The notes beneath the pieces were generated by a model, which was given only the letters and a program-made list of their open reading frames with translations, was not told where the DNA came from and did no database searches. The position numbers and the translations under genes are program-made. This document shows positions 38,550 through 54,120 of a stretch of DNA of 64,000 nucleotides, one piece after another (the stretch's first letter is position 1; the number at the start of each line of letters is the position of its first letter). This DNA is from Aegicerativicinus sediminis. Its GTDB lineage: Bacteria > Bacteroidota > Bacteroidia > Flavobacteriales > Flavobacteriaceae. The stretch is from the NCBI RefSeq assembly GCF_015476115.1, contig NZ_CP064295.1:1234001-1298000 (forward strand). Direction: 5' to 3'.

Positions 38550-38679
38550 GTGGTCCCACCTGAACCATGTTTTAATACCCTGATATACAGCAATATACAC
38601 TATTATGAAGTGTTTTACAATTTTTCATTCCATTGAAAAGAGCTATAAATAGCTGTATACATGTAGGTGGCATTGAGCA
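38550..38679. repeat. Dispersed ~130-bp repeat, copy 2
   Basis: It starts GTGGTCCCACCTGAACCATG and ends GTAGGTGGCATTGAGCA. It is closest to copy 1: both share the right half with AGCTATAAATAGCTGTATAC. It sits between the integrase remnant and the nos gene cluster, so it marks the second module boundary. No coding capacity was seen. Confidence 0.85.
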
Positions 38680-38944
38680 TATTTATCAATAATTTATAAC
38701 CCTGATAATTTTAATAATTTTTAAAATTTTTAAGGCCTTAAAGCTTTTCGCTTCCAAAATAAAGGAACTCAATTATACCAAGAGTGATGAGATATGGCCC
38801 CTCCTTGTAAGAACTAGATTTATGTTTTAGTCGACTTAGCTTGATTGGAGGGAACGTAAAATTATTTATTTAGAATCGACTCAATTAATTCCCCATTTTG
38901 CTTGTCAGATAATAGTCTAATTACCTTAAAATAGTAATTATTTT

Positions 38945-38970
38945 TAAATAGGATATTTTTGTCCTATTTA
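38945..38970 (+). promoter_or_regulatory. Palindromic operator of the nos operon (candidate Rrf2/NsrR-type site)
   Basis: Perfect 9-base arms TAAATAGGA and TCCTATTTA flank the 8-base spacer TATTTTTG. The spacer fits the Bacteroidota -7 promoter consensus TAnnTTTG, so a bound repressor would cover the promoter. The site lies 62 bases before the cytochrome start. Related sites precede ric (47989-48014) and rrf2 (48509-48532), which makes the Rrf2 protein encoded at 48032 the likely ligand. Confidence 0.65.
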
Positions 38971-39032
38971 TGATTTTTGTCATCTTTTACTTTTCAGACA
39001 CCACCTAATTTTGAAATATCAAAAAAGAAATA

Positions 39033-39539
39033 ATGAAAAATCTAATTAGTTTATCCCTATTGATCTTCCTCTTTATATTTTCTAGCTGCGGTGGTGGAGC
39101 CACAAAAAAAGAAGAAAAGAGTAAAATCAAACTTGAAGCTCCCAAATCAGAGATTAAAACAACCCCAAAAACAGAAGGCATTCCTCCTTCTCAAAGAGTC
39201 GACCTCGATAATAAAGGAGTCGGACCTATAACTTCTCTCAAGCTTTCTAATGAAATTGATCCCGAAATGGCCGCGCATGGTGAAGAGGTGTATAAAAACA
39301 TGTGTTCGGCTTGCCACCGGCCAGATAAAAAATTCATTGGCCCCGCACCTATCGGAATTTTGGAAAGGCGATCTCCTGAATGGATAATGAATATGATACT
39401 GGCTCCTGAAAAAATGGTTCAAAATGATCCATTAGCCAAAGATCTACTGATGGAATTTAATGGCTCGCCAATGGCAAATCAAAATTTAACTGAAGAAGAG
39501 GCACGCGCAGTACTGGAATATTTTAGAACATTAAAATAA
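39033..39539 (+). CDS. Monohaem c-type cytochrome lipoprotein of the nos cluster
   Basis: A 168-residue lipoprotein (FIFSSCGGG, Cys19) with one haem-binding CSACH motif (Cys91, Cys94, His95) and a likely distal Met in NGSPMANQ. After the lipobox there is a charged, proline-rich linker of about 35 residues that lets the haem domain reach out. As clade II nos clusters usually lack NosR, a periplasmic cytochrome of this kind is the probable electron donor to NosZ. It opens the operon, 8 bases ahead of the fasciclin gene, and is preceded by the palindromic operator. Confidence 0.9.
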   Translation: MKNLISLSLLIFLFIFSSCGGGATKKEEKSKIKLEAPKSEIKTTPKTEGIPPSQRVDLDNKGVGPITSLKLSNEIDPEMAAHGEEVYKNMCSACHRPDKKFIGPAPIGILERRSPEWIMNMILAPEKMVQNDPLAKDLLMEFNGSPMANQNLTEEEARAVLEYFRTLK

Positions 39540-39547
39540 ACTGATAT

Positions 39548-40123
39548 ATGAAACCAATCCTAAATTTTCTTTTGGTTGTAATGCTGGTTTGTTTTGGTCA
39601 ATCCTGTAAAGTTGATGAAAATCAAACCGAACTTACAACTAGCAATTCCTTGAAAGAATCCAATGATCCTGCCAAAACTGGCCAAGCCTTTATTAAAGAC
39701 GATGAAAGCAAACCCACTGTGTTGAGTATCGCTATTGATTCTAAGGAACATTCTACCTTGGTAGCAGCAGTACAGGCCGCTAACCTTGAAAATGCCTTAG
39801 TAAATGCCGGACCTCTTATGGTATTTGCCCCAACCAATGATGCTTTTGAAGCCCTACCTGAAGGCACAGTAGAGAACTTATTAAAGCCTGAGAACAAAGA
39901 AGTCTTAGCAAACATTTTGAAATACCATGTTACCCCCGGAAAATATTCCGAAGAATTCTTAACCAAATTTAAGCAATTGGGGCAGGCTAACAACCAATAT
40001 GTAAACGTGGAGGTGGTAGATGGTAAGCCGGTCATTGGAGGTGCACATATCCTTGCAAGCATCGAGGCCGGAAATGGTATTGTACATGTTATCGACAAAG
40101 TATTGTTACCTCCAACTGAATAA
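39548..40123 (+). CDS. Fasciclin (FAS1) domain lipoprotein
   Basis: A 191-residue lipoprotein (VCFGQSCKVDE) with a single FAS1 domain covering about residues 55-190. The H1 box is APTNDAFEALPEGTVENLL, followed by ILKYHVTPGKY and the H2-like GIVHVIDKVLLPP. FAS1 domains mediate protein-protein or surface contacts. The gene lies 8 bases after the cytochrome gene and 20 before nosZ, so it belongs to the same transcript. It could hold the cytochrome and NosZ together at the membrane surface, but that is only a hypothesis. Confidence 0.9.
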   Translation: MKPILNFLLVVMLVCFGQSCKVDENQTELTTSNSLKESNDPAKTGQAFIKDDESKPTVLSIAIDSKEHSTLVAAVQAANLENALVNAGPLMVFAPTNDAFEALPEGTVENLLKPENKEVLANILKYHVTPGKYSEEFLTKFKQLGQANNQYVNVEVVDGKPVIGGAHILASIEAGNGIVHVIDKVLLPPTE

Positions 40124-40143
40124 TGAATAAACTAAAACATTAA

Positions 40144-42117
40144 ATGATGAATAACATTTTTAAAACAATTACTGCGCTTGTAGGGCTTTCATTAGTTTTT
40201 ACAAGTTGCAATAACGGAAACTCATCCCGCCAAAAATCTGGCGCACTTGCCAGCAACGTGGCTGAAAAAGTCTATGTACAACCTGGAGAACACGATGAAT
40301 TTTATGCCTTTGTTTCTGGTGGGTTTAGTGGACAATTGTCCGTTTACGGACTACCATCAGGAAGACTTTTTAAAGTGATTCCTGTATTTTCTCAAGATGC
40401 AGAAAAAGCATATGGGTATAATGAAGAAACCAAACCTATGTTGAATACATCCCATGGTTTTATTCCGTGGGACGACTCACACCATCCTGACATTTCCCAA
40501 ACCAACGGAGAACTCGATGGAAGATGGGTATTTATTAATGGGAATAACACGCCTAGAATTGCCAAAATCGACCTTACAACCTTCGAAACTACAGAGATCA
40601 TTGAAATACCAAATAGCGCTGGTAATCATAGTTCCTCCTTTGTAACCGAAAATACTGAATATGTCGTTGCGGGTACTCGATTTTCTGTGCCGATTCCGCA
40701 AAAAGATATGCCCATAAAAGATTACAAAGGAAATTTTAAAGGGGCTTTAACTTTCATTTCGGTTGCACAAGAAACAGGTGAAATGAATATTAAATTCCAA
40801 TTGATCATGCCCGGATTCGATTACGACTTAGCGCACCCCGGTAGGGGAAATAGCCATGGATGGTTTTTCTTCAGCACCTATAATTCTGAAGAAGCAAATA
40901 CCTTATTAGAAGTTAACGCCTCCCAAAATGATAAAGATTTTATTGCTGCGGTAAACTGGAAAAAAATTGAAGAATACGTAAATAACGGTGGAGGAACAAA
41001 GGTTCCGGCTAAATATGCACATAACGTTTATAATGACCACACCCATACTGCATCTTCCAAAATCCTTAACGAAGTGCTTACGGTTAATCCTGCTGAGGTA
41101 CCTGGTGCCGTCTTTCTATTGCCAACACCTAAATCACCTCATGGATGCGATGTAGATCCTTCTGGCGAATATATCGTTGGTAACGGAAAATTGTCTGCCA
41201 ATCTAACCGTGCACTCCTTTACCAAGATGTTAGATGCAATTAAAAACGAAAAATTTGCCGGTGACGCTTATGGTATTCCTATTTTAAATTTCGAGGATGT
41301 CCTAGCAGGCACTGTTGAACAACCAGGCTTAGGTCCTCTCCACACAGAATTTGATGGTAACGGCTATGGTTATACCACCTTCTTTATTTCCTCTGAAGTG
41401 GTTAAATGGAAATTGGGCACTTGGGAAGTTGTAGATAGACAGCCCTGTTATTATTCAGTTGGCCACCTAATGATTCCTGGGGGAAACTCTCGCAAGCCTT
41501 TTGGGAAATACGTGGTTGCTATGAACAAAATCACAAAAGATCGTTATTTGCCAACGGGTCCAGAAGTTACCCAATCTGCCCAATTGTATGATATAAGCGG
41601 TGATAAAATGGAGCTTTTGTTAGATTTCCCCACAGTCGGTGAACCGCATTATGCAGCAGGATGTCCTGCAGATTTAATAAAAGCTAATTCTAAAAAAATC
41701 TTCCCATTGGAAGAAAACGATCATCCCTATGTCAGTAAAAGTGAGGCCGACACCAAAGTGGTCCGCGATGGTAAAACGGTTCATATTTATATGACCACCA
41801 TTCGTTCACATTTTTCGCCAGATAATATCGAAGGTGTTAAAGTTGGAGACAAAGTGTATTTTCACGTTACCAATCTAGAGCAAGATTATGATGTTCCACA
41901 TGGAATTAGCATAATAGGCGCAAACACTTCAGAACTATTAATTATGCCTGGCCAAACGGAGACCTTCCTTTGGGAGCCTAAAGAAGAAGGTGTATGGCCG
42001 TTCTACTGTACAGATTTTTGCTCTGCTTTACACCAAGAAATGCAGGGTTATGTTAGAGTTTCTGGAGAAAATGCAAACACCCCATTAAAATGGTCCTTGG
42101 GTGGTGATATAGAATAA
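40144..42117 (+). CDS. nosZ: Nitrous oxide reductase, clade II (Sec-dependent)
   Basis: A 657-residue enzyme that reduces N2O to N2 in the periplasm. Its N-terminus is a Sec lipoprotein-like signal (LSLVFTSCNNG) with no twin-arginine motif, which defines clade II. The propeller carries the CuZ histidine pairs (DDSHHPDIS; HPGRGNSHGW; NDHTHTAS; SPHGCDVDP). The C-terminal cupredoxin holds CuA in CTDFCSALHQEM (Cys622, Cys626, His630, Met633) plus the upstream His in DVPHGISI. All ligands seen are present, so the enzyme is probably active. It ends in a terminator hairpin before the accessory genes. Confidence 0.97.
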   Translation: MMNNIFKTITALVGLSLVFTSCNNGNSSRQKSGALASNVAEKVYVQPGEHDEFYAFVSGGFSGQLSVYGLPSGRLFKVIPVFSQDAEKAYGYNEETKPMLNTSHGFIPWDDSHHPDISQTNGELDGRWVFINGNNTPRIAKIDLTTFETTEIIEIPNSAGNHSSSFVTENTEYVVAGTRFSVPIPQKDMPIKDYKGNFKGALTFISVAQETGEMNIKFQLIMPGFDYDLAHPGRGNSHGWFFFSTYNSEEANTLLEVNASQNDKDFIAAVNWKKIEEYVNNGGGTKVPAKYAHNVYNDHTHTASSKILNEVLTVNPAEVPGAVFLLPTPKSPHGCDVDPSGEYIVGNGKLSANLTVHSFTKMLDAIKNEKFAGDAYGIPILNFEDVLAGTVEQPGLGPLHTEFDGNGYGYTTFFISSEVVKWKLGTWEVVDRQPCYYSVGHLMIPGGNSRKPFGKYVVAMNKITKDRYLPTGPEVTQSAQLYDISGDKMELLLDFPTVGEPHYAAGCPADLIKANSKKIFPLEENDHPYVSKSEADTKVVRDGKTVHIYMTTIRSHFSPDNIEGVKVGDKVYFHVTNLEQDYDVPHGISIIGANTSELLIMPGQTETFLWEPKEEGVWPFYCTDFCSALHQEMQGYVRVSGENANTPLKWSLGGDIE

Positions 42118-42153
42118 AGGAATAGGATTATAATGTTTTAGTGTAAATCCTAA

Positions 42154-42188
42154 AAAGGCGGGGGCATCCAAACCTTGTCCTCGCCTTT
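42154..42188 (+). terminator. Hairpin terminator or processing site after nosZ
   Basis: AAAGGCGGGG (42154-42163) pairs with CCTCGCCTTT (42179-42188) with one G-U pair and a 15-base loop, followed by an A/T-rich tail without a long T run. It lies between nosZ and its accessory genes and may set a high ratio of nosZ mRNA to nosLDFY mRNA. Confidence 0.65.
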
Positions 42189-42219
42189 AATAACATAAGA
42201 ACGATACAAAGCCATCACA

Positions 42220-42810
42220 ATGAAAAAATCTAATGTAATAATGCTAGTTGCGGCTATACTGCCACTTGGCTTGTTTTTGTTTCCTCTTTGGAAAATAACT
42301 TTAGAGGCGCCTCAGTATCCTACTCCACTAGGAATGTACATTCATATCAATGATTTTTCTGATGCAAATCCGCATGACATAAAGAATATCAATCTGATGA
42401 ATCATTATGTGGGTATGAAATATATTCCTGAAGCGATACCAGAATTCAAGATTTTTCCCATCGGTATTCTCCTAACCAGTTTAATAGGAGTCCTCATAGC
42501 TTTTAAGGGCGATTACAAATGGTTTTTGGGATGGTTTATCCTAATGGTGGTGTTAAGTATAGCGGGGCTTTATGATTTCTATTTATGGGAACATGAATAC
42601 GGCCATAATTTAGACCCCAAAGCTATTTTAAAATTCACCAATCCAGATGGTACCCAGATGGGATTTCAACCTCCCTTTTTTGGTAGTAAGCAAATATTGA
42701 ATTTCAGGGCACATTCGTATCCCCAACTTGGTGCCTTATTCCTAGGTCTCGGTATGGTTGTCTCCTTTATAGCATTTTGGATGGGCAAACGAACGAAACC
42801 ACTGGTTTAG
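42220..42810 (+). CDS. Integral membrane protein of the nos cluster (unknown function)
   Basis: A 196-residue protein with about four transmembrane helices (around 5-25, 80-100, 105-125, 170-190). A polar loop of about 55 residues after helix 1 contains several His and Asp residues (HINDFSDANPHDIKN; MNHYVGMKYIPE), and EHEYGHNLDP follows helix 3. Proteins of this type occur between nosZ and nosL in clade II clusters of Bacteroidota, but I know of no assigned role. The His-rich loops could bind copper or haem, which would fit NosZ maturation or electron supply. Confidence 0.8.
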   Translation: MKKSNVIMLVAAILPLGLFLFPLWKITLEAPQYPTPLGMYIHINDFSDANPHDIKNINLMNHYVGMKYIPEAIPEFKIFPIGILLTSLIGVLIAFKGDYKWFLGWFILMVVLSIAGLYDFYLWEHEYGHNLDPKAILKFTNPDGTQMGFQPPFFGSKQILNFRAHSYPQLGALFLGLGMVVSFIAFWMGKRTKPLV

Positions 42811-42843
42811 CCATTTATCAACCAAGGTAAATACCTTTCTTTT

Positions 42844-43287
42844 ATGAAAACACTAAAACAAATATCCTTAACTGGTTTGGTATGGCTTATAATTTCCTGC
42901 AAGCCTTCCCCAAAACCCATAGAATATGGCATAGACGATTGTCAATATTGTAAAATGACGATAATCGATAAAATCCATGGTTCTGAAATGGTTACCAAAA
43001 AGGGAAAAGTCTATAAGTTTGATGCGGCGGAATGCATGATTCATTTCCTTCAAGGATTCGATCCAAATGAAATAGAACTCTACCTTACCAATAGTTTCGA
43101 TCATCCTTCCCAACTGGTTGACGCCACTCAAGCGTTTTATTTGGTGAGTGAAAACCTCCCTAGTCCAATGGGCGAATTCCTTACGGCTTTTAAAAATGAA
43201 GGAGAGGCTATCGATATACTGGCGACTCAAGGAGGTACTCTTTATAATTGGAATGAAATTAAAAAGATCCTTAATGCTAAAAAATGA
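42844..43287 (+). CDS. nosL: NosL copper chaperone lipoprotein
   Basis: A 147-residue lipoprotein (LIISCKPS, Cys19). NosL delivers Cu(I) for CuZ assembly in NosZ. The conserved metal site is visible as DDCQYCKM (Cys33, Cys36, Met38), followed by KVYKFDAAECMIHFL and a C-terminal block beginning at SPMGEFLTAF. The stop overlaps the nosD start by four bases (ATGA), so the two proteins are translationally coupled. Confidence 0.93.
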   Translation: MKTLKQISLTGLVWLIISCKPSPKPIEYGIDDCQYCKMTIIDKIHGSEMVTKKGKVYKFDAAECMIHFLQGFDPNEIELYLTNSFDHPSQLVDATQAFYLVSENLPSPMGEFLTAFKNEGEAIDILATQGGTLYNWNEIKKILNAKK

Positions 43288-44522
43288 GGTTAGATGCCAT
43301 TTTAATAGCGATGTTTTTGTTGTTGACCTCCATGGTTTATGCACAACCTATAGAGGTATGTAAAAGTTGTACCATAAATACAATAAAGGGTGCTATCGAA
43401 AATGCCAAGAGTCATGATACCATTATCGTAAAAAGGGAAATTTATAAAGAAACAGATATAATAGTCGATAAACCTTTAACCCTTATAGGAAAAGATTACC
43501 CAGTTATAGATGGACAGTTGCAAGGAGAAATTATCACTGTGAATGCTGATAGCGTTACCATAGAAGGGTTTGTAATAAAAAATGTAGGTGTTAGTTATAC
43601 CAAAGATTTTGCCGCCATTCGGTTACGAAAGAGCGAACATTTCATCATTCGAAATAATGTACTTCAAAAACTCTTTTTTGGTATTTACATTGAAAAATGC
43701 AAAAATGGAATTGTGGCTAAAAATCAAATTATGGGAGATGCAAAGGAAGAGTTTAATTCGGGCAATGGTGTACAATTATGGTATAGCAATAATGTGCAGG
43801 TTATAGGCAACCACATTGAAGGTGTTAGGGATGGTATCTATTTAGAATTCTCTCCGAATTGCAGCATTCTTAAAAACATTAGCAGAAATAATGTTCGGTA
43901 TGGTTTGCATTTTATGTTTTCTAACGAAAACCGTTATACCGGAAATATTTTTGAAAATAATGGCGCTGGAGTAGCTGTAATGTTTTCGAAAAAAATTAAA
44001 ATGACGGAAAATACCTTTCGAAAAAATTGGGGAACTGCAGCTTATGGAATGTTGTTGAAAGAAATAAATGATGCCGAAATAAGAGGCAATACCTTTGAAG
44101 AAAACACCACAGCCATCAATATTGAAGGATCTAATCGGGTGGTTTATACTAATAACGATTTCAAAAATAATGGTTGGGCAATAAAAGTGAGAGGGGCCTG
44201 CTATTCCAATACTTTTAGGGCTAATAATTTCTTGAATAATTCTTTCGATTTAGCTTACAACAGCAAAGTAAACGACAACACATTCATCGGCAATTATTGG
44301 AGCACCTATTCGGGATATGATTTAAATAAGGATGGCATAGGTGATGTACCGTACAGGCCTGTAAAGTTATTCTCCTACATCGTTAATAGAACTCCGGAAA
44401 CCATCATATTGTTGAGAAGTGTATTTATAGATATCATCGATTTCTCTGAGAAGGTATCGCCGGTTTTTACACCCGATAATTTGATGGATGCACAACCTAA
44501 AACAAAACGAATCCGATGGTAA
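43284..44522 (+). CDS. nosD: NosD periplasmic maturation protein (parallel beta-helix)
   Basis: A 412-residue exported protein (signal peptide ending in MVYAQP). Residues about 60-340 are right-handed beta-helix repeats with regular N/I ladders (IIRNNVLQKLFFGIYIEKCKN; GNTFEENTTAINIEGSNRV) typical of the NosD/CASH domain. With NosF and NosY it forms the ABC-type complex needed to build the CuZ centre. The sequence SGYDLNKDGIGDVPYRP near the end is a family signature. The start overlaps nosL and the end overlaps nosF by seven bases. Confidence 0.94.
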   Translation: MRLDAILIAMFLLLTSMVYAQPIEVCKSCTINTIKGAIENAKSHDTIIVKREIYKETDIIVDKPLTLIGKDYPVIDGQLQGEIITVNADSVTIEGFVIKNVGVSYTKDFAAIRLRKSEHFIIRNNVLQKLFFGIYIEKCKNGIVAKNQIMGDAKEEFNSGNGVQLWYSNNVQVIGNHIEGVRDGIYLEFSPNCSILKNISRNNVRYGLHFMFSNENRYTGNIFENNGAGVAVMFSKKIKMTENTFRKNWGTAAYGMLLKEINDAEIRGNTFEENTTAINIEGSNRVVYTNNDFKNNGWAIKVRGACYSNTFRANNFLNNSFDLAYNSKVNDNTFIGNYWSTYSGYDLNKDGIGDVPYRPVKLFSYIVNRTPETIILLRSVFIDIIDFSEKVSPVFTPDNLMDAQPKTKRIRW

Positions 44523-45223
44523 GAGTAGAGAATTTATACAAAAGCTTCGGCAAAAATCAAGTGTTATGCGGGCTAAACCTCGACATAACCGAAGGAGGAA
44601 TCGTTGCTGTGGTGGGCCCAAACGGATCTGGAAAAACCACCTTGATTAAATCTATTTTAGGAATGGTGGTACCCGATAAAGGCCAAATCTCGGTATTGGG
44701 AGAAAGTATAAAAAACGGATCTAAGTATAGAGATTCTATTAATTATTTACCCCAAATTGCCAACTTCCCAAGTAACCTAAAGGTGAGGGAAATCATAAAA
44801 ATGATTAAGGATCTAAGGCAACACAGCGATTATGAGGAAAGATTGTTGGAAATTTTCAAACTGCACCCCTTTCTAGACAAAAAACTGGGTAACCTTTCGG
44901 GGGGCACCAAGCAAAAGGTAAACATTGTTTTAACCTTTATGTTCAACAGTCCCTTGATAATCTTAGATGAGCCTACCACAGGCCTAGACCCGGTCTCCCT
45001 TATAAGATTAAAAGAACTGATCATAGAACAAAAAAACAAGGCAAAAACGATTTTGATCACCTCACATATTATGAATTTTGTCGAGGAAATTTCAGACGAG
45101 ATCATATTTCTGCTTGAAGGCACCATTTATTTTAAAGGCAGTATCCCCCAACTAAAAGAGAAAACCAACCAAGCAGATTTTGAACATGCCATTGCCTCCA
45201 TTTTAATTGAAAACCATGCTTAA
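44516..45223 (+). CDS. nosF: NosF ABC transporter ATPase
   Basis: A 235-residue cytoplasmic ATPase. Walker A is GPNGSGKTTL, the ABC signature is LSGGTKQKVN, and Walker B with the catalytic Glu is PLIILDEPTTGLDP, followed by the H-loop TSHIM. It powers the NosDFY complex during copper-centre maturation. The gene overlaps both neighbours, as expected for subunits of one complex. Confidence 0.95.
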   Translation: MVRVENLYKSFGKNQVLCGLNLDITEGGIVAVVGPNGSGKTTLIKSILGMVVPDKGQISVLGESIKNGSKYRDSINYLPQIANFPSNLKVREIIKMIKDLRQHSDYEERLLEIFKLHPFLDKKLGNLSGGTKQKVNIVLTFMFNSPLIILDEPTTGLDPVSLIRLKELIIEQKNKAKTILITSHIMNFVEEISDEIIFLLEGTIYFKGSIPQLKEKTNQADFEHAIASILIENHA

Positions 45224-45998
45224 AATTTTAAAATACAGTGTTTTCGACCTTATGCGTAGCCGTTGGACCTACGTCTATTTTGGTTTCTATTTAATCCTAG
45301 GATTTGTGTTGTTGTTCTTAAATAATGATTTGTCTAAGGCAGTCATCACTCTGATGAACGTCATTATTATCTTGGTTCCTTTAATCGGAACCATCTTTGG
45401 CGTAATGTATTATTATAACAGCAAAGAATTCACCGAACTGCTTCTTGCGCAACCCTTAAAAAGGTCCGCTATATTTTTGGGGCAATATTTAGGGGTTGCC
45501 TTATCTCTCTGCCTCAGTTTGGTGCTTGGTTTGGGAATCCCTTTTATATTATATGGTTTGTTTGAAAGTTCTGCAATTTGGAATTTTGGTTTGCTCTTGG
45601 TTACAGGCGGATTCTTAACCTTAATCTTTACGGCCTTGGCTTTTAATATTGCACTGTCCAACGAAAATAAAATTAAAGGATTTGGATACGCAATTCTCCT
45701 TTGGCTTTTTCTGGCGGTGATTTACGATGGTGTATTTTTAATGTCTTTAATCTTTTTTGAAGAATATCCCTTGGATAAACTTTCATTGGTCGGTACCATG
45801 CTTAACCCAATTGACCTGTCTAGAACCCTAATTCTATTGAAACTCGACATTTCAGCCTTATTGGGTTATACCGGCGCCGTATTCAAAAAGTTTTTTGGCA
45901 CCAACTTGGGTTTAATGGTTTCCTTCGGAATGTTAATGCTTTGGGTTATTCTACCTGTATTTAGGATCGTTTTCAAATCAAAGAAAAAGGACTTTTAA
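45216..45998 (+). CDS. nosY: NosY ABC transporter permease
   Basis: A 260-residue inner-membrane protein with about six helices, partner of NosF. I choose the ATG at 45216, which overlaps nosF by eight bases; a TTG at 45207 would add three residues. The N-terminal block ILKYSVFDLMRSRWTYVYFGFYLILG and the YYNSKEFTELLLAQPLKRSAIFLGQY segment are typical for NosY. Its stop codon lies within a bidirectional terminator hairpin. Confidence 0.93.
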   Translation: MLKILKYSVFDLMRSRWTYVYFGFYLILGFVLLFLNNDLSKAVITLMNVIIILVPLIGTIFGVMYYYNSKEFTELLLAQPLKRSAIFLGQYLGVALSLCLSLVLGLGIPFILYGLFESSAIWNFGLLLVTGGFLTLIFTALAFNIALSNENKIKGFGYAILLWLFLAVIYDGVFLMSLIFFEEYPLDKLSLVGTMLNPIDLSRTLILLKLDISALLGYTGAVFKKFFGTNLGLMVSFGMLMLWVILPVFRIVFKSKKKDF

Positions 45999-46010
45999 AA
46001 ATCCTTTTTC
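45983..46010. terminator. Bidirectional terminator at the end of nosY
   Basis: A 9-bp stem GAAAAAGGA/TCCTTTTTC with a ten-base loop. The left arm is inside the last codons of nosY. With T runs on both strands it can stop both the nos operon and the convergent operon that ends at 46019. Confidence 0.75.
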
Positions 46011-46018
46011 AACTTTCG

Positions 46019-47206
46019 TCAGACGGCTTTATTTCCTAAGATATTCGAAATAAACAAAGCAATTGATATGGGTATGAACACACTAAAACTAAACATGAAT
46101 AGAGCATAATTTGAGATGGGTTCGCTCTGGCTAAAATAGAGATAACCCTGGGCGAGCAACAATAATTCGGTTAGTAGAAACCCTGCGAGAAAACAAAAAA
46201 GCCCCAGCAAAAAAATGGAAGTTTGCGTAAATATGTTTTTCATCAAAATAAATAGCAATAAAAAACCCGAAACTCCACCCAGCATTAATAAATGGATAAA
46301 CCCGATTACATAAAGTCGATGTTGGTAAATTTCTGTTGCAAAGGTCGGGTGAAGGGAAGCTAATTGAAAAATGTTTTTGAGAATGATGCAAGATAAGGAG
46401 AAAAGCAAAATACTTTTTCTCGATAGGTCAGCATGCCTGATGGAATTTTTCGCATTCGACCATATGATTTGTACAAACCATAAAAGCCCTATGATTTGAA
46501 ATAGAGTACCAACTCCATGAATCCAAAATAGGGACCAATGAGGGTAAAACCATTGAAGTGGCAAGGAAAATGTTAGAAAGGTGGCCGTTACCCAGAGAAA
46601 ATAAATACTTTTCAAGCGTTTAGATTGCTTCACTTTTAAAGCATTCACTAGTAACCCTAAAACCGCAAATAAAAACCATCCATTAAATTGAAAATGAAGA
46701 AAAAACTGAATTGCGGTTTGATAAAAATCTGAAGCCTTACCCGAAATTGCAACAGCAGGACCTAAGCACCACACCCCTGCCGTAGATAAGATCATGAAAA
46801 AAAGGGCCGTTTTAATGAAGCAGGAACTTGACGATTGGTTCCCTTTAAAATCCTTCCAGACAAGAAATGAAAAATAATAACTGCATAAAATATGAAGGGT
46901 AGAAAAGCTGATGGAAACTGCCGCATAACCTTGAAAGGGAAAGCTGAAAAGCATACCCCAAACGGTGATTTGTGTCATCCAGAACAATCTTTGATAGAGA
47001 ACACCCTTCTTAGAAACATAAGTTTCTACGATCAGCGCGTATAGCATTAGGTATGCCCATCCTAACATAGCAATGTGAGAATGGGCATGCGTTACATACC
47101 GGTAATTAATGCTAATGGGGAAGATCTGTGAATACCTCAGCATCAACCCCAAAAGTGCGGCCATAAAAAAGTTTGACAGACAAACAATTGTAAGCTTTTT
47201 TAGCAT
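46019..47206 (-). CDS. Polytopic membrane protein, haem-copper-oxidase/NnrS-like
   Basis: A 395-residue protein with about 10-12 transmembrane helices. Histidines lie at helix ends in a pattern that recalls haem ligands of haem-copper oxidase subunit I or of NnrS: RYVTHAHSHIAMLGWAY, QFFLHFQFNGWF, SLFWIHGVGTLFQ, YQHRLYVIGFIHLLMLGG. I cannot place it firmly in either family. It is 42 bases after the iron-sulfur repair gene and shares its transcript, so a role in nitric oxide or nitrosative stress is likely. A test for bound haem would separate the options. Confidence 0.75.
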   Translation of the reverse strand: MLKKLTIVCLSNFFMAALLGLMLRYSQIFPISINYRYVTHAHSHIAMLGWAYLMLYALIVETYVSKKGVLYQRLFWMTQITVWGMLFSFPFQGYAAVSISFSTLHILCSYYFSFLVWKDFKGNQSSSSCFIKTALFFMILSTAGVWCLGPAVAISGKASDFYQTAIQFFLHFQFNGWFLFAVLGLLVNALKVKQSKRLKSIYFLWVTATFLTFSLPLQWFYPHWSLFWIHGVGTLFQIIGLLWFVQIIWSNAKNSIRHADLSRKSILLFSLSCIILKNIFQLASLHPTFATEIYQHRLYVIGFIHLLMLGGVSGFLLLFILMKNIFTQTSIFLLGLFCFLAGFLLTELLLLAQGYLYFSQSEPISNYALFMFSFSVFIPISIALFISNILGNKAV

Positions 47207-47248
47207 ACCAAGCTATATTTCTCAGTGCTTGAAATTAGCTCGGATTCT

Positions 47249-47983
47249 TCAGTTAACAAATTGTTCTTGCAGTTTGATGGCTTTGGGAAACAAAATATTG
47301 TTTTCTAAATGGATGTGCAAATGCAGATCTTTTTCAAATTCTTCTAGCATGGAATAGGCCACCCGAAAGGTAGTACAGGCATCGGAAGGAGGCTGATAGT
47401 TATTGGTCAATTCTGCAATCTGGCTAAATCTTTGCCCTTCATTTTCATGTTCATTTTCCATAACTGAAATAGGATTTTGAACCTGCCCAAAAGGAGGTGA
47501 CGCTAAAATTGTTCCTTGCCTCTGTGCATTTACCATCTCCTTCACATAAGGAAATAGATTGAGCTCCTCTTTTTTCATATGTTTGGTCAATTCTCCGGCT
47601 GAGGTTTTAAAAAGTTCATTGATTTTTAAAAGTTCTGTATGCCTTTCACCGTGTACTCGACAAAGTTTTTCCAGAAATTGTTTGAGGACCGGAATAGTAT
47701 CTTCTACATATCTGTGATGCTTCTTTTCTATATAATCCGCCAATAGATCTATTGGCCAAGAAGAATAATCCATTTTCTCATCGGAATAAGAATGGAGCGA
47801 ATGTTCTAATTCATTCATAATTAGCTCTGTATCGAGGCCTTTTTTTAAACATACTTCCTCTAGAGTTCTATGGCCATTACAACAGAAATCGATCTGATGT
47901 TTTTTGAATACAGCTGCTGTCCTGAAATCTTCAGCCACATAATTACCGATGGTTTTAGAGATTTTTTGTGTTTGTGTTTCCAT
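47249..47983 (-). CDS. ric: Iron-sulfur cluster repair di-iron protein (RIC/ScdA/YtfE family)
   Basis: A 244-residue cytoplasmic protein. The N-terminal DUF542 domain (1-60) has the conserved Cys pair Cys34-Cys35 in IDFCCNGHRTLEE. The hemerythrin-like domain (about 80-235) supplies di-iron ligands in EKKHHRYVEDT, RVHGERHTEL, MKKEELNLFP, ENEHENEG and HIHLENNILFP. Such proteins repair iron-sulfur clusters damaged by nitric oxide. The start codon lies only 5 bases after a palindromic operator matching the one before the nos operon, which implies regulation by the same factor. Confidence 0.94.
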   Translation of the reverse strand: METQTQKISKTIGNYVAEDFRTAAVFKKHQIDFCCNGHRTLEEVCLKKGLDTELIMNELEHSLHSYSDEKMDYSSWPIDLLADYIEKKHHRYVEDTIPVLKQFLEKLCRVHGERHTELLKINELFKTSAGELTKHMKKEELNLFPYVKEMVNAQRQGTILASPPFGQVQNPISVMENEHENEGQRFSQIAELTNNYQPPSDACTTFRVAYSMLEEFEKDLHLHIHLENNILFPKAIKLQEQFVN

Positions 47984-47988
47984 GATTT

Positions 47989-48014
47989 TAAATAGGATAT
48001 TTTTGTCTTATTTA
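47989..48014. promoter_or_regulatory. Palindromic operator before ric
   Basis: Arms TAAATAGGA and TCTTATTTA flank TATTTTTG, identical to the nos site except for one base in the right arm. It lies between rrf2 and ric, directly ahead of the ric start. The -7-like spacer points away from ric here, so the shared feature is the palindrome rather than the promoter box. Confidence 0.65.
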
Positions 48015-48031
48015 TGTATAAAAAAATACTG

Positions 48032-48469
48032 TTACGTTAATTTCAAAACCGTATTTCCCTTTTCTAATTGATCCACCAATACTTCCAAGGTAGTATTTTC
48101 CAACATTAGTCTTAGGCTATGTCTAACTTCCGTAAATCTGTCATGTAAAGGACAAGGGTTTTCTTCGTTACACCTTTGCAAACCCAATCCACACCCCTTA
48201 TAGATATCGTCGCCGTCAATGGTTTCCACGATTATTGAAAGTGTAATTTTAGGTATGTTTTCCTTGTCAATTTCGAATCCACCATAAGCCCCTTTAATAG
48301 ACTTAACCACATTTTTTCTTACCAGTGCCTGAAGAATTTTAGCGGTAAACGCTTGAGGGGAATTGATTTCTGCTGAAATTTCTTTAGGATTTACCCTTTT
48401 ACCTTCCAGGGAATTTTTAGCAATATAAATCATTGCCCTAATGGCATATTCACAAGCTTTTGAAAACAT
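48032..48469 (-). CDS. Rrf2 family transcriptional regulator (NsrR/IscR-like)
   Basis: A 145-residue winged-helix regulator: MFSKACEYAIRAMIYIA and the recognition region NSPQAFTAKILQALVRK are family blocks. Three cysteines (Cys93, Cys100, Cys106) are spaced as in the iron-sulfur-binding members NsrR and IscR, so the protein can probably sense nitric oxide or redox state through a cluster. It is the first gene of the minus-strand operon with ric. A palindrome variant in its own promoter suggests autoregulation. It is the natural candidate for controlling the nos operon as well. Confidence 0.93.
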   Translation of the reverse strand: MFSKACEYAIRAMIYIAKNSLEGKRVNPKEISAEINSPQAFTAKILQALVRKNVVKSIKGAYGGFEIDKENIPKITLSIIVETIDGDDIYKGCGLGLQRCNEENPCPLHDRFTEVRHSLRLMLENTTLEVLVDQLEKGNTVLKLT

Positions 48470-48508
48470 AAAGAGTCTAAATTCCTTTCAAAATTACTAT
48501 AAATTTTT

Positions 48509-48532
48509 AATTAGGACAAAACAATCTTAATT
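48509..48532. promoter_or_regulatory. Palindromic operator variant before rrf2
   Basis: AATTAGGA-N8-TCTTAATT, two changes per arm from the nos site and with the same 8-base spacing. It starts 40 bases upstream of the rrf2 start codon. Read on the gene strand, the spacer contains TTGTTTTG, close to the -7 consensus. Confidence 0.5.
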
Positions 48533-48776
48533 AATCACCTATAATTTTAAGTCATTTTTTTTCAATTAATTTGTGAACTAAGGCTAACAGCTTCCCCCTA
48601 TTGTATCGTTCATTAAAACAATAATAAATTGTGCTAATTATAATTACCTTATGTTAAACCTCCAAAGTTTTATTTGTTTCACAATATGCCTTAAAGTTGC
48701 CTTGGTTATACAAGGAATAACTTTGTGGTGCTGACTTCCGAAACGTTTATTGTTACTAATCTGAGGAAGGTAAAAA

Positions 48777-48810: not shown

Positions 48811-48942
48811 GTGGTCCCACCTGAACCATGTTTTAATACGCTGATATACAGCAATATACACTATAATGCAGTGTTTTACAATTTATAATTTCTGAAAATA
48901 TAGCAATATAGAGCGGTAAACATGTAGGTGGCATTGAGCACA
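48811..48942. repeat. Dispersed ~130-bp repeat, copy 3
   Basis: It has the same start (GTGGTCCCACCTGAACCATG) and end (CATGTAGGTGGCATTGAGCACA) as the other copies. The left 65 bases match copy 2 almost perfectly. The right half has diverged (TAGAGCGGTAAAC where the others have TAGCTGTATAC). It closes the nos/nitrosative-stress module on its right side. Confidence 0.85.
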
Positions 48943-49527
48943 ATTGTAATTAGAAATAGTTTATACTTCATACTTCTATCATAAATTTGAATTGTGTTGA
49001 ACTTATCTCCCAAATTTACCATTTAAACAAAATCCAGTCTGCTTTATACAAACTGGAAAGGGTTTAACAAAAAAATGAATACGATTAGATTGTTCTAAAT
49101 CTTCGACTTGTATAAAATTTCTCCCTTCTTGTGTTGCCAAATAGCCTATATTTTCTAATATGGTTATTAACGGATTCACGATTATTTTTTAAAGCTTCAT
49201 AATTACTGAACATGACTATCAATGTTTTAAATTGTTATTGTTAATGAGTTTATTTATTGAACAAAAGTAGATCGAGACAAGAAGATAGATTTTACACAAT
49301 TAATTTATAGACTTTTATAATTCTTGTTCTTTCCGTGAAATAATATAATTAAGAATGATTTGAGACGACAAGCTATTGAGAGATTATTGAGCTATTCAAT
49401 GAGGTTAATAGATAATATACATGATTCAAAATATTAAAAAACATTATTGAAATTTTGTAAAATTAATTTTCCGTTAAATTGGCATTTTCGATAATGCTTG
49501 AACCTTTTCAAAAACAAATGTTCCATT
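48943..49527. other. Gene-poor stretch between repeat copy 3 and the GNAT gene
   Basis: About 585 AT-rich bases without a recognisable gene. On the minus strand around 49180-49020 two overlapping frames (one containing IGYLATQEGRNFIQVEDLEQ, one starting with an ATG at 49213 of about 42 codons) look coding-like. They are interrupted by stops and may be the remains of a decayed gene. I cannot name it. Confidence 0.35.
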
Positions 49528-50557: not shown

Positions 50558-51124
50558 ATGAAACTGAACATTAAAAATATGGTATGTGGCCGCTGTATTA
50601 TGGTGGTTGATGGCATTTTTAAAGCTCAGGGTATAGATGTCGAAACAGTCTCTTTGGGAGAGGTTCAACTTCCCCAGGAAATTTCACCCGATCAACTCTC
50701 AAAACTGAATTCGGCATTGAAGGAAAAAGGATTCGAAGTAATAGACGACAAAAAAAGTCTATTATTGGAACGGGTCAAGTCTGTCGTAATTGATGAGATC
50801 CATCACAATGACCATTTTGAACTTAAAGTCAATTGGTCACATTTTTTACAGGAAAAATTGCAAACAGATTATCACCATTTAAGCACTTTATTCTCTTCCG
50901 TAAATGGGTATACACTAGAACAATATATCATCAAACAAAAGGTTGAAAAGGTAAAGGAATACCTTTTTTATGATGAAATGTCCTTAAAGGAAATTGCCTT
51001 TAAATTAGGTTATAGTAGTGTTGCCCATCTTTCTACCCAATTCAAAAAAATCACAGGACTCACTCCTTCAAAGTTTAAAGAAACCTTAGACAACCGAAAC
51101 AGACTTGCACTGGATCAAATTTAG
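50558..51124 (+). CDS. HMA-like metal-binding domain fused to AraC-type HTH, paralogue 1
   Basis: A 188-residue protein combining a metallochaperone-like N-terminus (1-65; KNMVCGRCIMVVDG, Cys10 and Cys13) with a C-terminal AraC-type DNA-binding domain (about 90-180; MSLKEIAFKLGYSSVAHLSTQFKKITGLTPSKFK). The MxCxxC site is the Cu(I) site of Atx1/CopZ-like domains. The fusion suggests a one-component copper sensor in which metal loading controls DNA binding. The genes that follow (a second copy, CopA ATPase, chaperone, multicopper oxidase) are the obvious targets. That it senses copper is inferred from the motif and neighbours. Confidence 0.88.
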   Translation: MKLNIKNMVCGRCIMVVDGIFKAQGIDVETVSLGEVQLPQEISPDQLSKLNSALKEKGFEVIDDKKSLLLERVKSVVIDEIHHNDHFELKVNWSHFLQEKLQTDYHHLSTLFSSVNGYTLEQYIIKQKVEKVKEYLFYDEMSLKEIAFKLGYSSVAHLSTQFKKITGLTPSKFKETLDNRNRLALDQI

Positions 51125-51205
51125 GAATTTTGAAACTCTTCCCAAATAATATGTAACAACTAAAAGCCGAATTCGATTGAACTTTGTCTAAAATTTTAAT
51201 TAGAC

Positions 51206-51811
51206 ATGGACAATTGGAGTCAACTTAACATTAAAGGAATGGTTTGTAATCGCTGTATACAAACCATAGAGGAAACCCTATATCATATTGGGTACGCCAT
51301 AAAATCCATATCATTAGGAAGAGTTGTTTTTAATGATAGCCTCTCTTTAAATGATGTAAAATTGGTAAAGGCTTCTTTAACCCAACTCGGGTTTGAATTA
51401 CTTGAAGATCGTAATCAAAATCTACTAAACGAGATCAAATCATCCATTCAAGAATTGGTGGCTTACAATTCTAATGGGGAGAAAATGGAGAAGATTTCAA
51501 CATATCTAAGCAAAAAGCTCAATAAAAACTATGATTCCCTTGCAGAGTTTTTTGGCAGATATGAAGGATTAACCATAGAGAAATACTTCATAAACACTCG
51601 AATTGCTAGAGTAAAAGAGTTGCTTGTATATACGCAAGACACATTATCGGAAATAGCGTTTCGCGTTGGATTTAGCAGTCCCCATCATTTATCGAACCAA
51701 TTCAAAAATAGCACAGGATTAAATCCGTCAGATTTTAGGGAATTACACAAAAAAAATAATGCTGTTAGAAGGAATGAAAACATGCAACATGAAATATTTA
51801 CGTCAAATTAA
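51206..51811 (+). CDS. HMA-like metal-binding domain fused to AraC-type HTH, paralogue 2
   Basis: A 201-residue paralogue of the gene 81 bases upstream, with the same two-part layout: KGMVCNRCIQTIEE (Cys14, Cys17) and an AraC domain (about 100-190; DTLSEIAFRVGFSSPHHLSNQFKNSTGLNPSDFR). The recognition helices differ clearly from paralogue 1 (SSPHHLSNQF against SSVAHLSTQF), so the two may bind different sites or form heterodimers. It ends 47 bases before the copper ATPase gene, which makes local control of that gene likely. Confidence 0.88.
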   Translation: MDNWSQLNIKGMVCNRCIQTIEETLYHIGYAIKSISLGRVVFNDSLSLNDVKLVKASLTQLGFELLEDRNQNLLNEIKSSIQELVAYNSNGEKMEKISTYLSKKLNKNYDSLAEFFGRYEGLTIEKYFINTRIARVKELLVYTQDTLSEIAFRVGFSSPHHLSNQFKNSTGLNPSDFRELHKKNNAVRRNENMQHEIFTSN

Positions 51812-51858
51812 TTATACCCATCAATAAACTAAATGGAGTAGCTTAAAATATTTAAAAA

Positions 51859-54120
51859 ATGAAAACTATAATGGAAATAACCGATAGCAAAGAGATAAGC
51901 GCAAGCGAACAACTAATTAAACGGACTTTTCCAGTTACGGGTATGACTTGTGCCGCTTGTGCCGTTAGTGTCGAATCAATGCTCACCTATACCCCTGGTG
52001 TTGTTAGTGCCGGAGTCAATTTTGCTAGCCAAAGTGCTTGGGCGGAATTCAATCCTGAAATTACCTCTTTGGACGATCTACAAAAAGCCGTTCGATCCAT
52101 TGGCTATGATCTAATCATTGATTCCGAAGACCCATCCCAAGAACAATATGATCTTCAGAGAAAACAATATGAAGATATTCGCAAAAGACTAATATGGTCT
52201 GCTGTTCTTACATTCCCCGTATTTATCATAGGGATGTTCTTTATGGATTGGGAAATGGGAAAATGGATATCCATGATTTTATCGGGAATAGTTCTTTTCT
52301 ATTTTGGAAAAAAGTTTTTTGTCACTGCATGGAAGCAAGCAAAATTTGGAAAGGCCAATATGGATACTCTTGTAGCATTGAGTACCGGTATTGCTTATCT
52401 ATTCAGTGTATTTAATACGCTTTTCCCTCATTTCTGGCATGAACAAGGAATTCATCCTCACGTTTATTATGAAGCAGCCGTCGTTATCATAACCTTTATT
52501 TCCCTTGGCAAGTTGTTGGAGGAAAAAGCCAAATCCAATACATCATCTGCAATCAAAAAACTAATGGGATTACAACCTAAAACTGTCAAGGCCATATTTG
52601 AAAATGAAGAAGTCGAGATACCTATTTCATCAGTTCGGGAGGGTTATACCCTAATCGTGAGACCAGGTGAAAAAATTCCTGTGGATGGCATAGTAAGTTC
52701 TGGGCAATCTTATGTTGATGAGAGCATGATAACCGGAGAACCAGTTCCCGTATTAAAATCCAACGATGCTGTAGTTTTTGCAGGCACATTGAATCAAAAA
52801 GGCAGCTTTCATATGATTGCCAAAAAAGTGGGAAGCGAAACAGTATTGGCTGGAATTATTCGAATGGTTCAAGAGGCACAAGGAAGTAAGGCCCCAGTTC
52901 AAAAACTCGTCGATAAAATCGCTGGCGTATTCGTGCCAATTGTCATCGGTATATCCATACTTACATTTATCACTTGGATAATACTTGGTGGCGATAATGG
53001 CTTCACGTATGCTTTATTATCTTCCGTTACAGTTTTAGTTATAGCCTGTCCCTGTGCTCTAGGTTTGGCCACACCCACAGCAATCATGGTTGGAGTTGGT
53101 AAAGGTGCCGAGAACAATATTTTGATAAAGGATGCCGAGAGCTTGGAGCAAGGGCATAGGGTAAATGCAGTTATTCTTGATAAGACGGGCACCATTACAG
53201 AAGGAAAACCACAGGTGGCAGATGTCTTTTGGGCTACTCCGGAAAACTCAAGGAAGTATTCCGGCATACTGCTTAGTCTGGAATCACAAAGTGAACACCC
53301 TCTAGCGGAAGCCGTCGTTAATCACCTAAAAGGTGAGATGGTCAAACCAGATCATGTAACCCAATTTGAAAGTTTCACAGGACGAGGTGTCATGGCCAAG
53401 TTTAATAACGAAACCTATTATGTTGGCAACTTAAAATTGATTCAGGAAAAAGGGATCTACACCGACACAAAATTGTTTTCTACTGCTGAAAGATGGCAAG
53501 GTGAAGCTAAAACGGTTATCTATTTTGCCAACTCTCACCAGACCTTGGCCATATTTAGTATTGCCGATAAGATAAAAGCCACCTCGAAGGAAGCCATCAA
53601 AAGACTACAGGAAATGGGCATAGAGGTTTATATGCTTACCGGAGATAATTATCATACTGCAAATGCCGTAGCTGATGAAGTAGGAATAAAACATTTCAAA
53701 GGAGAAGTTTTGCCATCAGACAAGGCGGAGTTTACAAGAACCCTGCAATCCGAAGGTAAAATTGTAGCCATGGTAGGGGACGGTATCAACGACTCGCACG
53801 CATTGGCTCAAGCAGATGTAAGTATTGCTATGGGCAAAGGTTCGGATATTGCCATGGATGTTGCTAAAATGACCTTGATTACGTCAGATCTTAATTCCAT
53901 ACCTAAAGCCATCAAACTATCTCGAAGCACTGTCATTGGAATTCGCCAAAACTTGTTTTGGGCATTCATTTATAACCTCATCGGAATTCCTCTTGCGGCG
54001 GGCATCCTTTTCCCACTTAATGGGTTTCTTCTAGATCCTATGATAGCAGGAGCAGCTATGGCTTTCAGTTCGGTATCGGTAGTAGCCAATAGCCTAAGAC
54101 TGAAAAGAATAAAAATCTAA
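51859..54120 (+). CDS. copA: Cu(+)-translocating P1B-type ATPase
   Basis: A 753-residue inner-membrane copper exporter. Order of parts: one HMA domain (about 20-85, [13 protein letters not shown] with Cys31 and Cys34), eight transmembrane helices with the CPC ion motif (Cys397-Pro-Cys399 in [14 protein letters not shown]), the actuator motif MITGEPVPV, phosphorylated Asp441 in [10 protein letters not shown], nucleotide-domain SEHPLAEA, and hinge [20 protein letters not shown]. Motif set and length match CopA, which moves Cu(I) out of the cytoplasm and supplies periplasmic cuproenzymes such as NosZ. An internal ATG nine bases downstream is an alternative start. Confidence 0.96.

Follow-up and report, generated by a model that had tools for sequence, protein, structure and literature searches.

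Known Rrf2 systems and the present locus

In Neisseria, an Rrf2 repressor sensitive to nitric oxide (NO) and FNR are described as jointly controlling a nitrite reductase and a RIC-type repair gene, aniA and dnrN (PMC3032703; PMC1802743), and norB also carries NsrR sites (PMC1274295). Here we analyse 64,000 nucleotides of Aegicerativicinus sediminis (NZ_CP064295.1, positions 1,234,001 to 1,298,000; hereafter the window), in which one palindrome lies before the nos operon for nitrous oxide (N2O) reduction, before the repair gene ric and before rrf2, the gene of an Rrf2 regulator. This locus is unlike that of Neisseria in its phylum, in its operator, in the inclusion of nos and in a nos operator that abuts an FNR-type box, and the genome holds no recognisable NirK and NO reductase. 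Judged by analogy, the combined Rrf2 and FNR logic proposed below is of a known kind, with its precedent in Neisseria.

The NsrR regulons of proteobacteria, Bacillus and Streptomyces (Rodionov 2005) likewise join the Rrf2 family to genes of NO and denitrification. The published NsrR palindrome, gATGyAT-N5-ATrCATc (PMC1274295), differs from the motif found here, TAatTagGAtAAatTTaTCctAatTA; in the available text of that source the strings 'flavobacter' and 'cytophaga' are absent, while 'bacteroid' appears twice. NsrR of Streptomyces coelicolor (PDB 5n07, 7b0c) resembles the present protein in its fold, in having three cysteines and, as far as the alignment suggests, in a carboxylate at the Asp8 position (PMC5411485), whereas its cysteine spacing is x5/x5 instead of the x6/x5 seen here, and in the present clade Glu stands for Asp and both C6 (85/86 rows) and H109 (86/86 rows) are conserved. 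Its operator, 23 bp with two 11-bp repeats, differs as well (PMC4432287). In Ushuaia Bay metagenomes, clade II nos scaffolds were reported to be enriched in Rrf2 regulators, the role of which in clade II variants was considered difficult to predict; the available part of that account gives no motif, promoter anatomy, regulon or function (PMC6264515). Crp/Fnr control of clade II nosZ was suggested for Nitrosophilus labii, which, unlike the present organism, is a thermophilic chemolithoautotroph, and no Rrf2 element is mentioned in the available part of the paper (PMC11539149). A literature search over titles and abstract openings, with subscription journals mostly outside its reach, found no account of this operator or of a composite nos promoter. 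Nor did it bring up a description of this Rrf2 clade of Bacteroidota, of nos among the core targets of such a regulator, or of a nos promoter in which the two sites are locked together.

A palindrome shared by nos, ric and rrf2

In our reading, the palindrome is the operator bound by the product of rrf2 (48032-48469), a member of an NsrR-like iron-sulfur repressor clade, which would control a Flavobacteriaceae regulon centred on denitrification and NO and would act at nos by anti-activation; we give this reading a probability of roughly 0.6. That the palindrome is very probably the binding site of an NO-type switch is suggested by the sites listed here and by their counterparts in relatives.

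38945..38970, no strand: predicted Rrf2 operator of the nos operon, TAAATAGGATATTTTTGTCCTATTTA, centred at -60.5 relative to the inferred transcription start; motif kept in relatives
47989..48014, no strand: predicted ric-side Rrf2 operator, centred at about +15 relative to a tentative start
48508..48533, no strand: predicted rrf2 operator (autoregulation), covering -49 to -24 relative to the inferred start

All three sites are 26 bp long with N8 between the half-sites. The first-pass annotation had reported them with this constant spacing, and both points are borne out; the third starts at 48508, the 48509 given there being that of a shorter core. Its assignments of a clade II nos operon and of ric as a cluster repair gene were upheld by NosZ passing TIGR04246 and by a TIGR03652 match above cut-off. 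Without mismatches, WAAWTAGGA-N8-TCYTAWTTW matches these three sites only in the window, any match being yielded by 0/100 dinucleotide shuffles, and the nos and ric sites agree by 97% over 31 nt. In a scan of the 4.09-Mb genome with up to two mismatches, the fuller pattern was found at four places, namely the three sites and G000:C1:3912713. The latter copy lies inside an open reading frame of 588 amino acids (aa), and the window sites are the sole promoter copies at this stringency. The short core TAGGA-N8-TCYTA was rejected as a genome search tool, with 10 forward and 8 reverse matches against 22 each in the reversed control and thus no enrichment.

Conservation of the motif and its link to Rrf2

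The family set comprised 249 genomes. Rrf2 was matched at E 1e-20 or better in 140 of them and nosZ in 118, of which 111 were used; 175 stretches were fetched from relatives. These genomes (G genomes, with their G loci) were complemented by the named loci, taken around rrf2 in the best 79 of at least 572 named Rrf2 relatives, 12 of which share an identical rrf2 protein with a G genome so that the two sets overlap. The 79 named relatives belong to Flavobacteriaceae genera or to unclassified Bacteroidetes, Bacteroidia or Flavobacteriales assemblies. Beyond this family, Rrf2 matches at a similar level of identity (46-55%) were seen in further families of the same order and class.

When a palindromic motif was learned de novo with only rrf2 promoters as input, the outcome, TAatTagGAtAAatTTaTCctAatTA, proved to be the palindrome of the window. 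The training set held 89 orthologous rrf2 promoters, those of up to 120 nt having been dropped, and the motif is present on 80 of the 89. A non-palindromic search of the same promoters converged onto the start of the coding sequence and was discarded.

Presence on nos was counted with one promoter per genome (104 of 111 usable) and a site defined by a score of at least 14 bits. Where the genome holds a close rrf2 orthologue or nos has an Rrf2 gene next to it, sites were found in 60 of 93 promoters; where neither was found, the count was 0 of 11 (Fisher p 3e-5). Of the 56 genomes with a close rrf2 orthologue, 44 kept the site. A score of 14 was reached by 0/1110 dinucleotide-shuffled nos promoters and by 15/1021 other promoters of the same loci. 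As many as four nos promoters (G032, G063, G076, G114) are not independent of the motif, since the intergenic region in which they lie also belongs to an rrf2 gene used in training. The identity threshold separating the close orthologue (A) from its paralogue (B) misplaces G032, called A and grouping with B, and G053, called B and lying in the A clade; both count as 'Rrf2 present' in this comparison. An earlier count, 57/95 versus 0/16, called operon starts by gap length and was replaced, several starts having been miscalled. The first-pass annotation's proposal that nos, ric and rrf2 have the palindrome in common is supported; the palindrome is conserved in orthologous promoters, and its presence on nos tracks an Rrf2 gene. 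Inside the operon, directly upstream of nosZ, the site was seen in 0/18 named and 0/111 G loci.

Paralogue B, of about 30-45% identity, adjoins nos in 53 of the 111 nosZ genomes with a variant operator, as in L054 (15373-15802) and L086 (15326-15758). No paralogue B stands beside nos in the window.

Promoter architecture

In Flavobacterium psychrophilum, a TAnnTTTG box is described at -12 to -5 (PMC9723704). The corresponding elements of the window are listed with the FNR-type box.

38970..38983, no strand: FNR-type box ATGATTTTTGTCAT, centred at -41.5; base 38970 is common to the box and the palindrome
39006..39013, plus strand: nos -7 element TAATTTTG (TAnnTTTG), start inferred near 39018
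48489..48496, minus strand: rrf2 -7 element TAATTTTG, at +24 from the palindrome centre, start inferred at about 48484
48021-48028: tentative ric -7 element TATTTTTT, imperfect

In relatives, 63 of 71 nos promoters have a -7 box that begins exactly 48 nt past the centre of the palindrome, which places that centre at -60.5. At rrf2 (156 promoters, both paralogues) the -7 box outside the palindrome is found most often at +23 to +25, so that the palindrome covers -33, and in 18 of 31 nirK promoters with a site it lies 25-29 nt upstream, which sets the palindrome just downstream of the start. Where the sites lie speaks for repression of rrf2, of most nirK promoters and, probably, of ric.

Between the palindrome and the -7 box of nos, an FNR-type ATGAT-N4-ATCAT is centred exactly at -41.5 in 85 of 118 cytochrome-c (nos) promoters, a set that is not one per genome, and in 0/118 at positions shifted by 1-6 nt. 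Taking one promoter per genome, the box is present in 73/104, made up of 50/60 with the palindrome and 23/44 without it, the latter fitting a self-sufficient activator with the repressor added on top. The box of the window, ATGAT-N4-GTCAT, has 7/8 core bases of the FNR class II arrangement (TGAT-N4-ATCA-type at -41.5), with the start inferred from the -7 box. The 18 first-class nirK promoters carry an FNR-type box at the same place with 6 to 8 of 8 core bases. In the organism's own genome, box and -7 element occur together 7 times versus 0 in the control. Apart from nos, the pair precedes a HemN-like radical-SAM gene, one resembling 2-oxoacid:ferredoxin oxidoreductase genes and four more, with names assigned by eye. 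A Crp-type site with N6 spacing gave one match, inside a gene, and N4 was adopted.

Such a box would naturally be read by an FNR-type activator responsive to oxygen, and a candidate is the Crp/Fnr protein with an N-terminal CxxC at G000:C1:171227-171487 (L339), about 3 kb from ccoN (the ccoN-ccoO gene). The direct repression of nos put forward by the first-pass annotation is doubtful in this simple form, as the nos site at -60.5 lies upstream of the FNR-type box, which is conserved at -41.5 and had escaped notice.

The Rrf2 protein

48032..48469, minus strand: rrf2, 145-aa Rrf2 regulator with C93/C100/C106, E7 and H109; PF02082

Membership of the Rrf2 superfamily is reflected by 88.2 bits on PF02082 (cut-off 30) and 85.7 on TIGR00738 (cut-off 73.3). 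The product falls short of both equivalog models, with 31.2 of 182 bits for NsrR (NF008240) and 53.0 of 207.55 bits for IscR (TIGR02010). Since neither the NsrR model nor the published NsrR operator is matched, the protein is, on its sequence, formally not NsrR. The label 'NsrR-like' of the first-pass annotation is accurate for the cysteines C93, C100 and C106, to which C6 is to be added. Among solved folds, matches were found to RsrR, CymR, IscR and NsrR, with RsrR, CymR and one IscR outranking NsrR.

Rrf2 matches of less than 60 bits or less than 100 aa were dropped, and the tree keeps 143 of 147 Rrf2 rows. The A clade contains 86 rows with 100/100 support, 85 of them labelled A and one labelled B, with one A-labelled row outside. 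The three cysteines align with those of E. coli NsrR and IscR and are conserved together with H109 in 86/86 A and 57/57 B rows; the spacing C-x6-C-x5-C was present in 85/89 rows before the length filter, and C6 in 85/86 A rows. E7, conserved in 81/86 A rows, falls in the alignment column of E. coli NsrR Asp8, where Streptomyces NsrR has its fourth cluster ligand (PMC5411485), and is replaced by K in 52/57 rows of paralogue B. The residue aligned with Arg12 of E. coli NsrR (R11) is R in 34 rows and K in 52. In all 86 A rows H109 aligns with IscR His107, a cluster ligand position of that protein (PMC5411485). With NsrR-type and IscR-type ligands both apparently present, the sequence by itself fits either kind of signal.

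Predicted regulon members in relatives

Besides nos and rrf2, the site is found before ric in 60/70 named and 43/62 G loci and before nirK in 27/30 named and 6/8 G loci. Quinol NO reductase (qNor) promoters carry it in 7/9 named and 4/11 G loci, and norC promoters in 0/7 named and 4/7 G loci. Half of the G-locus matches lying elsewhere than at nos, ric or rrf2 (16/32) precede nirK, norC or qNor. Representatives of NirK and the NO reductases were confirmed by TIGR02376, PF22085 and PF00115. Because nirK and nor genes are among the members, NO is the likeliest signal of the regulator as judged from gene content; the NO sensitivity predicted by the first-pass annotation is accordingly a reasonable choice, with nirK and, in part, qNor bearing the motif.

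Scattered single targets are a cupin, UspA, a truncated globin, a hemerythrin-PAS protein and ribonucleotide-reductase genes. At L260 (15565-15963), L055, L067, L145 and L224, the palindrome stands before a conserved 132-aa protein, as in 6 of 17 named loci, or, in single relatives, before UspA, NrdG-like, B12-dependent ribonucleotide-reductase and truncated globin genes.

Proposed mechanism and alternatives

Directly supported are the shared, conserved and regulator-linked motif, the fixed promoter geometry and the content in NO-metabolism genes. We propose that a cluster-bearing Rrf2 dimer would bind DNA in the absence of NO, and that NO would damage the cluster and release the DNA. At rrf2, the site over -33 would block the polymerase directly, as would probably that at ric, just downstream of the tentative start. 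For nos, the likeliest mode would be anti-activation, with Rrf2 keeping the FNR-type activator off the promoter; this is favoured since the site at -60.5 abuts the box at -41.5, and exclusion is inferred because a 26-bp Rrf2 site lying 19 bp centre-to-centre from the FNR site would be hard to fill at the same time. The operon would then be switched on only with low oxygen and NO present together, and in a genome with no recognisable NirK, NirS or NO reductase the NO would be supplied by other organisms.

A rather unlikely alternative keeps the operator and gives the protein two roles, with the Rrf2 dimer aiding nos beside the FNR-type activator and repressing rrf2, nirK and ric, so that NO would turn nos down and ric up. 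The rigid +48 spacing (63/71) compared with the 25-29 nt spread at nirK hints at contact between the proteins, -60.5 is near the classical upstream activator position, and IscR is annotated as a dual regulator. Against a need for such help, the activator seems sufficient in the 23 of 44 nos promoters that have the -41.5 box and no palindrome, and the two sites have a base in common. Slightly less probable again is a regulator of the IscR or RsrR type that senses iron-sulfur status, oxygen or redox state and not NO, and through which nos and repair would follow the supply of clusters. The match of H109 to IscR His107 in every A row, the fold ranking headed by RsrR, CymR and one IscR, and the cluster repair function of ric agree with this, whereas the IscR cut-off is not reached, E7 is NsrR-like, and the targets recognised in relatives' loci (these loci only, partly by eye) are nirK, NO reductase, nos and ric with no isc or suf. 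That the palindrome belongs to some other regulator and is tied to rrf2 by neighbourhood only appears improbable. Paralogue B does stand beside nos in 53/111 relatives with very similar sites, and the genome encodes five weaker Rrf2-like candidates below the cut-off used; against this, rrf2 is the sole Rrf2 gene near nos in the window, the motif is on 80/89 rrf2 promoters of the training set, and it is missing from nos in 11/11 genomes with neither a close orthologue nor a nos-adjacent Rrf2 gene.

Several observations weigh against anti-activation by an NO-responsive Rrf2 protein as set out above. Concerning the regulator's reach, loss of the motif from nos promoters that retain rrf2, which the first-pass annotation had named as damaging to its model, was mostly not seen, and yet 12/56 genomes with the orthologue lack a nos site at score 14, and among the 11 genomes without a site, five do encode a more distant Rrf2 protein outside the nos neighbourhood. 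The site is absent before ric in 10/70 named and 19/62 G loci, and NO reductase membership (qNor, norC) is irregular across both sets. With three mismatches the fuller pattern matches 12 places in the genome versus 9 in the reversed control; as the short core is unenriched too, weaker regulon members can be neither recognised nor excluded. In six single-contig relatives, the pattern at two mismatches yielded 18 sites (0 to 4 per genome) compared with 13 for the control; this being weak, promoters were relied on instead. As to geometry, 6/31 nirK promoters share the nos-like +48 arrangement and 7/31 fit neither class, so that nos and nirK do not split cleanly; the ric -7 element is imperfect, and the Rrf2 and FNR sites overlap by a single base, exclusion being deduced from size. 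On the activator side, the candidate Crp/Fnr protein scores 99.5 where the Fnr model requires 228, and of the six boxes in the genome other than that of nos, four precede genes for which no tie to FNR or oxygen was recognised. Finally, H109 is IscR-like and a K in E. coli NsrR, and the signal could be iron-sulfur status or oxygen. It is the mixed nirK geometry and the five site-less genomes holding a distant Rrf2 gene that lowered our confidence in the proposed reading.

Genes of the locus and neighbouring features

39033..39539, plus strand: c-type cytochrome, first gene of the nos operon; PF00034, first ATG at 39033
39548..40123, plus strand: fasciclin-domain protein; PF02469
40144..42117, plus strand: nosZ, Sec-dependent (clade II) nitrous-oxide reductase; TIGR04246, 939.5 bits (cut-off 625)
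42220..42810, plus strand: nos membrane protein of 196 aa; homologues in relatives' loci, no family match
42844..43287, plus strand: nosL; PF05573
43284..44522, plus strand: nosD; TIGR04247
44516..45223, plus strand: nosF, ATPase of an ABC (ATP-binding cassette) system; PF00005
45207..45998, plus strand: nosY, ABC permease, assigned by position and homologues; family match only weak and unrelated
46019..47206, minus strand: orf395, 395-aa helical membrane protein downstream of ric; predicted heme-copper-oxidase/NorB-like fold
47249..47983, minus strand: ric (ytfE/scdA), di-iron iron-sulfur repair protein; TIGR03652, 241.9 bits (cut-off 204.7)

The product of orf395, which follows ric in many relatives, has no Pfam or NCBIfam match. 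Its structural model (pLDDT, a per-residue confidence score, of 89.7) matched CcoN and NorB in Foldseek with TM (template modelling) scores of 0.74-0.78. The His residues of helices 2, 6 and 10 are conserved or almost so, and helix 7 has no conserved His pair, which makes the function of an ordinary oxidase or NO reductase improbable for this protein. As a guess, it may be an NnrS-like NO-handling heme protein.

The nos-ric-rrf2 segment is bracketed by a 142-nt imperfect direct repeat (85%) at 38550-38691 and 48811-48952, of which five genome copies were found, all within about 92 kb; at its ends CCACCTGAACCATG pairs with CATGTAGGTGG, and Rfam gives no match in the window. The searched set contained one genome of the same genus (G154), in which neither nosZ nor a close rrf2 was matched, and the segment may therefore be a movable or lost cassette. 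Farther along, at 50558-54120, two short genes joining a metal-binding-like N-terminus to an AraC-type domain are followed by a copper-ATPase-like gene, identified by eye; these genes perhaps supply copper for NosZ.

Implications for N2O reduction in Flavobacteriaceae

NirK was not found above the family cut-off in the genome (best 22.6 of 296.3 bits), and cytochrome-cd1 (NirS) gave no match there. The COX1-family matches of the genome are two full ones, by eye an aa3-type cox1 and a ccoN-ccoO fusion, and one weak fragment below cut-off; a relative's quinol NO reductase does match this family, and no NO reductase is recognisable among the genome's matches. With NirK, cytochrome-cd1 and NO reductase all unrecognised, the organism is a probable non-denitrifying N2O reducer, and such a reducer may listen to the NO of its neighbours.

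We hold tentatively, at somewhat below even odds, a wider picture in which the locus represents a family-wide logic gate for N2O. In it, a separate NsrR-like Rrf2 clade with its own operator would be set at a fixed 19-bp spacing from the FNR-type box on nos, where the two regulators would exclude or contact each other, and NO from neighbours would cue NosZ together with the repair protein and a new membrane protein of heme-copper-oxidase fold.

N2O is a greenhouse gas that this bacterium is able to destroy, and clade II N2O reducers without a nitrite reductase are considered useful N2O sinks. How such reducers decide on NosZ production is poorly known. The motif allows regulons to be read from genomes, and operator, regulator and activator box together would predict, in a form open to testing, the conditions under which N2O is consumed by Flavobacteriaceae.

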